Of a stretch of 64,000 nt of DNA, positions 5,965-29,919 are shown in pieces. Each line of letters starts with the position of its first letter. Position 1 is the first letter of the stretch. The notes under the pieces were generated by a model. It worked only from the letters and a program-made list of their open reading frames with translations. It did not search any database and was not told the origin of the DNA. The translations under genes and the position numbers were made by a program. This stretch comes from Polytrichum commune (taxonomy: Eukaryota > Streptophyta > Polytrichopsida > Polytrichales > Polytrichaceae), in the NCBI GenBank assembly GCA_950295325.1, contig OX485807.1, positions 35,494,440-35,558,439 of the forward strand. The letters run 5' to 3'.

Positions 5965-12189
<6,225 letters not shown>

Positions 12190-26459: not shown

Positions 26460-27510
26460 GTTGCCTTAGACTCCTTTCTTTTGGCTAAGGGCAGGTTGTC
26501 TTACTCTGGCACTGTGCTCTACGATTCGGACACCACGCCGTCTGCCATTTGCATGATGCCTACACTCTCCAGCTGAGGTAGTGTAAATTTGAGAGCACAG
26601 AGCAAGGGTCCCATTGTTCTTCTCGGTATCAAAAAATTGAGACGTTAGGGATCGGCAGATTGCAATCAAAGCAAATGCTTATAAGCAAGATTGATTGATT
26701 TGAAGTAGGTAAGGCTAAGGGAGGAGCAGTACAGCCTCGACTCCTCCCTCATGTCTTCAAGCCATTCGACGAGTTTCGTCTTCGGCGTGCGAAAACAAAA
26801 CCCTTTCACGGCCTCCACATTATTCGAGAACTTAGGGAGTGCAATCACAGCAAATAATTGTTGGAAAGATTGATTAAGTTGAAGTAAAGTAAGGCTGGGG
26901 AGGGGCAGTACAGCCTCAACTCCTCCCTCATGTCTTCAAGGCATTCAACGAGTTTCGTCTTCGATGTGTGACAACAATAAGCCTTTCACTTCCTCCACAT
27001 TACTGATTGTCGATCCACCTAGCCCTTATATGATCCCGGACTACACCACAGTCATCATCCTGTCCTCTCAGACCGCAAGAAACTCATGCTCTCACTCCTG
27101 CTGCAGTAATAACATGATGCACTCGGCAAGGATCCCATTGGTCTTTTCGGTTTCAAAAAGTTTGATAACGTAGGGATCTAGATCACAGAAAATTTATTAG
27201 CAAGCTTAAATATTCTTGAAGAAAGTATTAAGGCTGGGGAGAGGCGGCAGTACAGCCTCAACTCCTCCCCCTTTCTTCCAGCCATTCGATGCGTTTCTCC
27301 CTCTTCGGTATGTGATAACATATGCCTTTCATGGCCTCCACATTTTTGATATCCGTTCTTCATAATCAATCCTTAAAATCTTCGACTAGAACAGAGCGCG
27401 ATCTGCCTCGTACAGACAGAGAGTCATCATCCTGTGGTCTTAAACCGCAACAAACTCATCCTACTCCTCATGATGCTGCAACAACAACAGCAACAAGATC
27501 ACTGGTGTGA
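26460..27510 (-). repeat. Tandemly duplicated exon-like units (three)
   Basis: Three related units are read on the - strand, centred at about 26657-26825, 26838-27000 and 27178-27355. The first encodes NVEAVKGFCFRTPKTKLVEW and then LEDM in a 60-codon frame. The third gives NVEAMKGICYHIPKREKRIE in one frame, and the middle one is broken by a stop. Each is bounded by shared flanks: 'cagtacagcctc.actcctcc' inside, and 'gatcccattggtcttttcgg' or its relatives at about 26605, 27130 and also 28289. Conservation of an amino-acid pattern across copies with different frames suggests descent from coding sequence. The family is unknown. Confidence 0.55.
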
Positions 27511-27572
27511 TCGAAACAACAACACCATATCTGATATCAATTCCAATCGCTCAAATTTAAGTTTTGGACAAT

Positions 27573-27607
27573 ATTCATGGCCCTCGGATGAATCGAGGGC
27601 CATGAAT
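27573..27607. other. Perfect 14-bp stem hairpin
   Basis: ATTCATGGCCCTCG (27573-27586), a 7-nt loop, then CGAGGGCCATGAAT (27594-27607). Three further outer pairs form after a two-base bulge. It is a short isolated palindrome in GC-richer sequence; its function is unknown. Confidence 0.8.
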
Positions 27608-27758
27608 TGTGAGAGCTCCGGGAAGCGACAGACGGCGTGAGGGGACGCGACTGTGCACCCTGCCCCCCATCCAAAACTTTTGCCACGGGCTGGCCTGCCC
27701 GACCCAAAGAAACCGGCCGGCCAAGGTTATGGAGAAAGTGCAGGCGGCGACCATGATA

Positions 27759-29346
27759 TGCAGTGACTCTCAAAACCTGAGTCATTGACTTACTACATCA
27801 ATTTTCACACACAATGCCAGGAAAAAGAAAATAAAAACAAGAACATATAAACTTTCATTTATGTAAGTTGGTAGTCATAGTTTAGTACATCATTTTCAAA
27901 GTCTCGTGTCTATTGCAAAATTACATGTGAAGAAACAGTGATTTGAAGAGGACTATATACATTGACTCAATTTTGTAACCTACATCTACCTATAGATCGA
28001 TGATTTGCCCAGCCTCTTTAGAAGTTAAAACAACTTGGATACGATTGGGCATGCTATGGTAGAACTTTTGGCACTATTCACAAGTGATGTAATGGAAGGA
28101 AGTTTGCACACGCTCCCACAATTGAACCATTCCTTTGATTGGTATTGGATACTCATTTACTTTCTGTTTCACAAGTGCCCACACATGCTCCATTGGAATT
28201 AGGTCAGGTGATTGAGGAGGCCAAGTAAGTACATCAAAATTTTGCATTGAGAATCACTGCTTGACTGATTTTTCAGTGTGTTTAGGATCCCATTGGTCTT
28301 TTCAGTTTCAAATTGTTTCATTTTTCTTATCATGCTAAAATATGACACGAGAAGGGTGAAACGGTACCGTTCAATTGTCTCCATAGCCTCATCTTGAAGA
28401 ATGCCAAGATACAAAGCTTGTGTCATCATCCCCTCTATCTTGCACATGTAATCCATGCCACGGAAAGTCATACAACCCCATGCAAAAATTGCACCACCTC
28501 CATGTTTAAGTTGTCTGACTCACATGATGAACTTATAATTGAGATTCGCCATCCCCGCCTAACACCAACCTTGACCATTAGACTTACATCGATTGATCTT
28601 ACTCTCATCACTAAAAATCACCCTATAGCAATCATGAATAGTCCAAACTTGATGACGTTGAGCAAATTCCAACATGCAACGCACATTCTTGGTTGTGAGC
28701 AACAACTTCTTTTGCTTCTTTAATGACCCAAGACCTGCTTTATAAAGTGCACACCTCACTATGTTCGTGCTCACTCCCACATTTAGGTGCTCACTCAAAG
28801 CATTCCTCACGTCTACAACATTATCTAGTCCACCAACTATGACGGCTCTTACACACGCTCGTCGTTGAGCGGGGGTGATGGTTCTTGGGCGCCCTCCTCT
28901 TGAAGGCTTCACATGAGGAACACACTCTCTACAAATCCTAGACTTATAGATTGAAAGATACCCAACAATTATGATACTTCACGTGTGCTACACCCATGTT
29001 CTAACAAGGTTGTAGTATTCAACCTCTTTTCTAGTAATGTCCTAAGAGACCACATTTCTAATCAGAAGTGAGAGGAAGTACCCTAGGTGGCATTGTGAAC
29101 TTATTCTTGCAACTAAAGGTGAGTGATGGAAACCGTTCCAAAACTAAGTCAATAAACCTAAGTTCAATTGAAATGCAATTTTGTCTCTTGTTGCTATAGT
29201 ACTCACACTGAAAATTGGAAGGATGATAGCCAGCTTGGTTGCACATTTGAACCAATTTACTGTCTAGCAAAAAGATCAATACTCTTCCAAACATGGCTTC
29301 CTGTAATTTGTTGTTTTGTTGATTGACTCAATTTTGAGAGTCGGTG
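27759..29346 (-). mobile_element. Tc1-type (DD34E) transposon, complete but decayed, 1.6 kb
   Basis: The left end contains GACTCTCAAAACCTGAGTCA and the right end is the complement of GACTCTCAAAATTGAGTCA. TA lies just outside each end (27757-27758 and 29347-29348), as expected for the superfamily. The length is that of a full Tc1 element. It encloses one transposase relic on the - strand (separate entry), about 250 bp in from the right end. Confidence 0.85.
27990..29093 (-). pseudogene. Tc1-type transposase relic
   Basis: The - strand shows the parts of a Tc1 transposase in order. They are a start MPPRVLPLTSD, a helix-turn-helix linker GRPRTITPAQRRACVRAV at about 28890-28830, the first catalytic Asp in VIFSDESKIN (about 28620-28590), GGGAIFAWGCMTFRGM, the second Asp in a broken 'HD..DPKHT' block, and WPPQSPDLIPMEH with the catalytic Glu. 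Leaving out a roughly 39-bp insertion, 34 residues separate the second Asp from the Glu, which is DD34E. The gene is dead. Stop codons and frameshifts occur in the first 60 codons, TGT-TAG follows NGQGWC at 28559, another TAG lies before HD, and the filler insertion sits at 28285-28325. Plant mariner-like elements are normally of a different DDD type. Confidence 0.9.
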
Positions 29347-29394
29347 TAAGTAGGGTGGATAGATGGGTCTTTAATGGTTATTTTTTCCAACTAG

Positions 29395-29590
29395 CCCGCT
29401 TCTTCTAGGATATGAAAACACGATTAGTACGAGGCAATAAACAAATATAAATCGAGGCCTTGGCCACTAATTTCCTCGTAATTTTTGAAGCTCGTATGAA
29501 TATTGAATTCATTATCAAAGTAAAGATTCTCATGCTCATTAAATGGTCATATATGTCCCCAAATTATGTTGAGTACTAAGCTTTACCAAT
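29395..29590 (+). repeat. Dispersed repeat ('aagatgattac' family) copy
   Basis: Shares 'gctcgtatgaatat.gaattcattatcaaagta' and 'ccccaaattatgttga' with the copies at 13945-14270 and 47265-47520. It lies just outside the Tc1 element. Non-coding. Confidence 0.55.
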
Positions 29591-29609
29591 TCTCTTTGGA
29601 GGGAAATAA

Positions 29610-29919
29610 GGGTGGGTTTACACTAGGTTCCGAGACAAAAGAAGCTCCAAACTCAAGTGGTCCTATTGGTATGAAGTTGTTTTTTTGGACCCAAGGAGTT
29701 CACACTAAAGTCTAGGTCTAAGGTATGAACAACTGAAGTAGTGCTAATGTGGCATCACTTTTCCACCAAATCTTGGCAAACCCCACTCCATAAACCATCC
29801 AAGTTTGAAAAACCAATAATTAAGCTTAAGTCTAATGTTGAGTACAAAATTAAAGTCCATTAAGGGGTGTTTTGAACCCCAATTTTCTTGGACTTGGGCC
29901 TCTAGTGTAAACCCACCCC
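29610..29919. mobile_element. TIR element with GGGTGGGTTTACACTAG ends
   Basis: Left GGGTGGGTTTACACTAG, right the exact complement CTAGTGTAAACCCACCC. About 310 bp, non-coding, so a MITE. The ends follow the same pattern (G-rich, then ACACTA) as the other TIR elements of the window. No target duplication is obvious. Confidence 0.8.

Follow-up and report, generated by a model that had tools for sequence, protein, structure and literature searches.

The transposon described here, at positions 27761-29346 of the window (the whole 64,000-nt stretch of DNA under analysis, G000:C5:35494440-35558439), is almost certainly a dead copy of an old family of cut-and-paste DNA transposons of the Tc1 (DD34E) type, residing in nuclear DNA of a bryophyte that is most likely a moss. 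Repeats and frames were listed over 27400-29700. The family was aligned in 38 copies, with L019 and L040 excluded, and this alignment gave the limits of the element. Features of the window copy are as follows.

27759..27760, no strand: left target-site copy on the gene 3' side, TG, decayed from TA (the change to TG is in the window copy)
27761..29346, 1586 bp, minus strand: whole Tc1-like (DD34E) element, decayed
27761..27789, plus strand: left terminal inverted repeat, starts CAGTGACTCTCAAAA
27961..27975, minus strand: inner inverted site near the left end, 15/15 match to CAAAATTGAGTCAAT, pointing outward (from the repeat listing)
28000..29031, minus strand: transposase gene remnant that lacks the start-codon region; 339 codon columns across the family
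28188..28190, minus strand: catalytic Glu (PMEHVW), codon column 402, E in 26/38 copies
28291..28326, no strand: 36-nt insertion relative to the majority columns, window copy
28329..28331, minus strand: second catalytic Asp, immediately before the insertion, codon column 367, D in 33/38 copies
28607..28609, minus strand: first catalytic Asp (VIFSDES), codon column 274, D in 35/38 copies
29139..29153, plus strand: inner site on the right side, inverted and outward-facing, CAAAACTAAGTCAAT with 2 mismatches
29318..29346, minus strand: right terminal inverted repeat, starts CACCGACTCTCAAAA on the minus strand
29347..29348, no strand: right target-site copy TA, on the gene 5' side

Mean column agreement among the 38 copies is 0.76-0.82 just inside these limits versus 0.37-0.39 just outside them, and terminal inverted repeats are present at both ends of the family alignment. 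The TA-flanked inverted ends, about 1.6 kb apart, that a preliminary description of this DNA had reported are real, with the refinement that the left TA seen at that time (27757-27758) sits 2 bp outside the actual target-site copy. In the family majority, the end on the gene 5' side reads TA followed by CACTGACTCTCAAAATTGAGTCAATC, and that on the 3' side, read inward, TA followed by CATTGACTCTCAAAACTGAGTCAATG. TA is found at the 5' side in 29 of the 34 copies that keep this end and at the 3' side in 18 of 28; both ends are kept in 25 of the 38 copies, 13 of which are flanked by TA at the two ends. To look for empty sites, the flanking sequences of 14 copies were joined; 11 of the joins entered the search in full, and 40 of its 4929 candidates were scored. 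Three copies (L021, L018 and L004) have an element-free paralogue, 77-80% identical, in which the sequence continues through the junction with one TA, and from these related empty sites it follows that the element inserts at TA and duplicates it. The other eight of the 11 joined flanks gave no countable empty-site match among the 40 scored candidates; some matches of L014 reach no more than 14 bases past the junction, or at most 3 from the other side, and were excluded from the count. Outside the element, about 150 bp to its left, a perfect 14-nt inverted repeat with a 7-nt loop occupies window positions 27573-27607.

The gene on the minus strand of the window copy carries all three signatures attributed to it in the preliminary description, GRPRTIT, VIFSDESKIN and WPPQSPDL. 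The spacing of 34 residues between the second Asp and the Glu, claimed on condition that an insertion be set aside, proved exact: 34 codon columns separate the two residues, three rows counted directly agree, and the insertion is the 36-nt segment at 28291-28326. When the copies are combined, a single largely open, intronless frame spans 339 codon columns and includes the GGRPRSIT columns; a GRPR-like stretch is typical of the region between the two helix-turn-helix parts of Tc1-like transposases. Against Pfam, the window copy alone matches HTH_Tnp_Tc3_2 barely past the cut-off (E 1.7e-07) and DDE_3 below the cut-off for that fragment (E 8.9e-05). In a family profile built from eight of the 38 rows, DDE_3 is found in 8/8 rows, HTH_Tnp_Tc3_2 in 7/8 and HTH_23 in 6/8. 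This profile aligns to the catalytic domain of Sleeping Beauty (PDB 5cr4), the one named DD34E transposase of solved structure that turned up for outside comparison, with 158 bits (E 2.9e-45, 227 profile positions), versus 30 bits (E 2.4e-06) for the best Mos1 chain. By these scores the family is closer to Tc1-type than to mariner transposases.

The element was said to be whole in length and decayed, of Tc1 type and not recent, and its state bears this out. The window copy contains six in-frame stops and six internal places with a missing or out-of-frame codon, and has lost its start-codon region. None of the 38 copies is intact: every one is interrupted by one or more stops and by one or more codons that are missing or out of frame; the longest stop-free piece covers 185 of about 339 amino acids.

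The family is dispersed over the whole genome. The assembly comprises 408 Mb, with seven large contigs (C1 to C7) of 42 to 78 Mb. The preliminary description had proposed a count of copies in the host, and a DNA search with 27759-29346, in which 40 of 203 candidates were scored, returned 47 matches at 40 loci, a lower bound. With the window copy counted among these loci and L019 = L020 taken as one locus that is duplicated exactly on a small contig, the family occupies at least 39 distinct places, the window among them, on all seven large chromosomes, a recurrence beyond chance. At 31 of the 40 loci, the window included, the match spans 1,430 or more of the 1,588 bases, with 76-80% identity for those besides the window; the remaining nine are partial or broken. 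The small contigs G000:C32 and G000:C59 repeat the matches of C2:2063690 and C1:37826942 with equal scores and are probably duplicate haplotype pieces. A 23-base end motif, allowing at most two mismatches, occurs 117 times versus 0 for the reversed control, and internally shortened copies probably exist, as some end-motif pairs among the listed places are 0.57 to 1.05 kb apart.

Divergence was computed from 31 copies; the other seven of the 38, in which an end or a long segment is missing, were dropped. K2P distances between pairs average 0.212 (range 0.149-0.270), and distances to the column majority average 0.118, with 0.100 for the window copy. Because the pairwise distance is about twice the distance to the majority, the family radiation was star-like. 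Raw change by codon position, without correction for base composition, is 0.080 at third positions versus 0.111 and 0.103 at the other two. We take the copies to have decayed without selection on the protein: third positions are not more diverged, as expected in that case, the rates being uncorrected. At 1% per million years, the rate used for moss by Liu and Yang (PMC4054914), the family burst would be some 10 to 12 million years old; the rate is borrowed and may not be that of the host.

By analogy with the Tc1 family in general, the transposase would have bound a 15-bp motif, CAAAAYTGAGTCAAT, at the ends of the element, excised the element by cleavage at both ends and integrated it at another TA. 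The star-like pattern of the copies is that expected after a single burst from one or a few active sources; the window copy no longer makes transposase and is a fossil of this burst.

Concerning the host, the element had been placed in plant nuclear DNA. This is right, the plant being a bryophyte by its plastid genes and not an angiosperm. The assembly includes a 146,561-bp plastid contig with rbcL, trnR-CCG, a short accD (315 aa), ycf4, cemA, petA, ndh genes, rpl21, chlL, chlN and chlB, and with ycf2 between trnH and trnD; gene names are Pfam-supported or else a reading of frames. The chlL product matches Fer4_NifH with E 1.1e-114. For chlN and chlB, whose first 60 residues give weak Oxidored_nitro matches (E 0.0027 and 0.0016), the names come from reading the frames. 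To our knowledge, chlL, chlN and chlB are missing from angiosperm plastids, and an angiosperm host was rejected on these three genes together with the 315-aa accD and trnR-CCG. Plastid G+C content is 21-27% in five unmasked 10-kb pieces; such low values and the gene order fit mosses and liverworts. Judged by plastid gene content, the host is a bryophyte and most likely a moss; that it might be of the Polytrichum kind (n = 7) is a guess. In the window itself, exons of an AAA ATPase, CDC48-like by eye, are present at 9087-11675 on the plus strand (Pfam AAA E 2.4e-28, AAA_lid_3 E 7.1e-15).

The same genome harbors at least five further DD34E families. A protein search with one copy, in which 120 of 945 candidates were scored, gave at least 135 matches; many of them have identities of 34-47%, and several are free of stops. 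Twenty further loci were read for comparison. The Pfam model PF01498 gave 150 matches (150 of 337 candidates scored); it also matches a DD39D plant element, so this figure does not give the number of Tc1-like copies. In the tree computed from 24 rows, seven copies of the window family form one clade with support 100/100, next to four well-supported further DD34E groups (L046/L048; L053/L064; L051/L054; L047/L049/L050/L052). Group II (L056-L058), which has long terminal repeats, is separate, and two DD39D plant-type elements are far off. The rows of this tree from outside the genome were Sleeping Beauty and the metagenome contig L119, and the order among the DD34E groups and the position of Sleeping Beauty were poorly supported in it; when L119 was omitted, the groups persisted and Sleeping Beauty joined group II (86/97). 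By direct count, 34 residues separate the second Asp column from the Glu in L046, L050, L051, L064, L053 (with Asp changed to Gly) and L056.

Some of these families are young. The L046 family has nine near-complete copies including itself at 97-98% identity (for example G000:C6:7061197-7062787), one of them with a stop-free frame of 351 aa, and the L050 family has six, again including itself, at 95-97%. In group II, L056 (G000:C1:3572871-3575006) and L058 (G000:C2:34857615-34859739) are DD34E elements with 213-bp terminal repeats that are 96-98% alike (98% in L056). Their open frames are 354 and 352 aa long, and identity between two long copies is 96%. The two DD39D plant-type mariner-like elements, L059 (G000:C7:29448300-29451200) and L060 (G000:C2:6872700-6875600), have frames of 480 and 517 aa from stop to stop; L059 has CTCCCTCCGT ends, and its DD39D spacing was counted by eye. 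In the superfamily survey of Dupeyron 2020, none of the PlantMar elements belonged to Bryophyta (PMC7325037).

Terminal sequences differ among the families. CAGTGA-type ends are found in the L046, L047/L050/L052 and L051 elements, with variants in L054, and were not found for L053 and L064. CAGT is the terminal tetranucleotide stated for plant members in PMC4054914. The majority ends of the window family, CACTG and CATTG, are unlike the CAGT stated for Tc1 and moss elements, and this counts against the explanation we favor; the window copy itself ends in CAGT on the left and CACC on the right. CAGT termini are present in L046, L047, L050 and others of the same genome.

How the family came to this genome can be explained in several ways, and the weights we give to long residence and to transfer are judgements, not calculations. 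The preliminary description had inferred entry by horizontal transfer, perhaps from a fungal associate. A lone foreign relic is rejected by the at least 39 distinct matching places, including the window, on seven chromosomes; at least five sister DD34E families, two of them young, are likewise at odds with an isolated arrival. The premise that plants have hardly any known DD34E elements is outdated, as DD34E elements of moss and nine angiosperms were reported in 2014 (PMC4054914).

Vertical descent of Tc1-like elements within mosses, with repeated bursts and deaths of which the window family is one old burst, has in our judgement roughly an even chance. It accords with the presence of at least five sister DD34E families of different ages, with copies 95-98% identical in two of them versus 76-80% to the window copy. 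In the tree without L119, a single clade of all group I families is not rejected (AU p 0.111), but it is not recovered in the free tree (2 changes; 0% of 200 bootstrap trees), and data from one species cannot separate long residence from several arrivals.

Horizontal transfer from a fungus or another eukaryote into the lineage, followed by the burst and death of the family, is possible but somewhat less likely than not. Transfer involving fungi and moss has been proposed by Castanera 2016 (PMC4905642) and Vendrell-Mir 2020 (PMC7466625), the latter with moss PpTc1/PpTc2 grouping with fungal elements. According to the former, a moss element shares, across 71% of its length, 71% DNA identity with a Tc1 element of Pleurotus, and the 213-bp terminal repeats of group II L056 and L058 are close to the 214 nt of this Pleurotus family. 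The window family, however, does not belong to group II: catalytic domains of three of its copies share 22-25% identity with L056, whereas identity with Sleeping Beauty is 34-36% and with L046, L050, L051, L053 and L064 of this genome 39-49%. Nor was any closer outside relative found in the virus and prokaryote collections, which do not cover fungi. There the family profile had 0 of 45 matched stretches confirmed in viral contigs and 0 of 51 in genome contigs. A broader profile had 54 of 95 confirmed in viral contigs and 3 of 15 in genome contigs. Eight of these 57 loci were aligned (five and three, respectively): six look like bacterial IS630 types, and two, L119 and the partial L120, are more eukaryote-like. 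Both are filed as bacterial metagenome bins, and only L119 entered a tree, on a long branch. L119 (JAGXRD010000121.1, 3128 bp), filed under an alphaproteobacterium, encodes a eukaryote-like DD34E transposase at 26% identity and is perhaps a misbinned eukaryotic contig.

An assembly artefact or fungal contamination, named in the preliminary description as a route to refutation, has a negligible probability; nothing in its favor was found, and it is not plausible, given dispersed copies with different flanks on all seven chromosome-scale contigs and three copies with empty-site paralogues in the same genome.

The kind of element, its host group and the explanation by transfer offered in the preliminary description are already known; the window family and its age are additions. 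Liu and Yang 2014 described moss DD34E elements with many young copies, those of nine angiosperms being mostly single and fragmentary (PMC4054914). A close likeness is seen in their PpTc1 and PpTc2 of Physcomitrium patens, which share with the window family a moss host, a TA target, the DD34E signature and short terminal repeats of about 30 bp. These elements, compared through their published description, are 1584 and 1709 bp long versus 1586 bp here, with a frame of 338 aa versus 339 codon columns. In contrast to the window family, with 76-80% identity to the window copy and 38 of 38 copies broken, PpTc copies are young (about 96% identical, some frames intact), and their ends are CAGT versus the CACTG/CATTG majority here. 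The Pleurotus TIR_1 and moss Mariner2_PPa elements are likewise of Tc1 type with a TA target, and the TIR_1 repeat of 214 compares with 213 in L056/L058 (PMC4905642); the window family differs from them in its short terminal repeats and stands apart from group II in the tree. L056/L058 may be of the moss and fungal TIR_1 type. Sleeping Beauty, whose catalytic domain aligns and has the same D, 34, E spacing, is by contrast an animal element, at the 34-36% identity given above, with direct inner repeats where those here are inverted. Bari, Sleeping Beauty, Paris, S and Minos also have more than one copy of the end motif per end; there the repeats are direct, whereas the inner copy of the window family is inverted (PMC3828361 for all five).

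This inverted arrangement is the most distinctive trait of the family. The 15-bp core CAAAAYTGAGTCAAT occurs four times in the family majority, facing inward at both ends and outward about 190 bp inside each. An inverted inner site matching at 12 or more of 15 positions is present in 30 of 37 copies on the 5' side and 30 of 38 on the 3' side; a directly oriented inner copy is found in 0 of 37 and 1 of 38, so the arrangement is not of the IR/DR kind. The core is partly palindromic, which could blur orientation, and its asymmetric CAAA side agrees with inversion. Aligned copies share descent and are not independent, and the real repeat of the finding comes from a second family (L046, L048) with the same plan: 14-15/16 positions match at 195 bp and 14/16 at 192 bp from the other end, scores reached by 0 of 200 shuffles. 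Elements L047/L050/L052, L051 and L054 have a weak inverted match on one side, 11-12/16 at 193-195 bp, which 8 to 128 of 200 shuffles reach, and on the other side the inner match is absent or elsewhere. Six single copies of the window family were also tested alone, and most fail on at least one side; in this test the right ends of the elements lacked one base, and a few flank bases may be present in the copies of the window family. Only the window family and L046/L048 count as showing the inverted inner arrangement.

The inner sites may have served the transposase, as candidate additional binding or regulatory sites. That they are instead sites of a host transcription factor, or a product of chance, we consider unlikely. 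In its favor, the motif contains TGAGTCA, a binding sequence of bZIP (GCN4-type) factors, the start of the gene is preceded by the inner 5' site, and the arrangement is not convincing in three further families. Such a reading is countered by the presence of the inner motif at both ends at nearly equal distance, by the identity of its 15-bp core to the outer sites and by its recurrence at the same place in the second family. In a limited literature search that included the available part of PMC3828361, no description of inverted inner sites was found for Tc1, and an inverted motif copy about 190 bp inside each end is possibly new.

A broader proposal, which we put forward tentatively and below an even chance, is that bryophytes own a DD34E Tc1-like lineage with several coexisting families, at least two of them marked by a pair of sites per end, the inner facing outward and the outer inward, a layout in which each end could be synapsed or silenced through a back-to-back pair rather than a tandem one. 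If the shared inverted inner sites bind transposase, they would extend the range of Tc1 end architectures described in animals by one arrangement. If the host is a moss other than Physcomitrium, DD34E Tc1-like elements of mosses are not peculiar to that genus and comprise, in this genome, at least six families of different ages. With genomes of further bryophytes and of fungi, such a set of families would also allow a test of the transfer from fungi to mosses that has been proposed.
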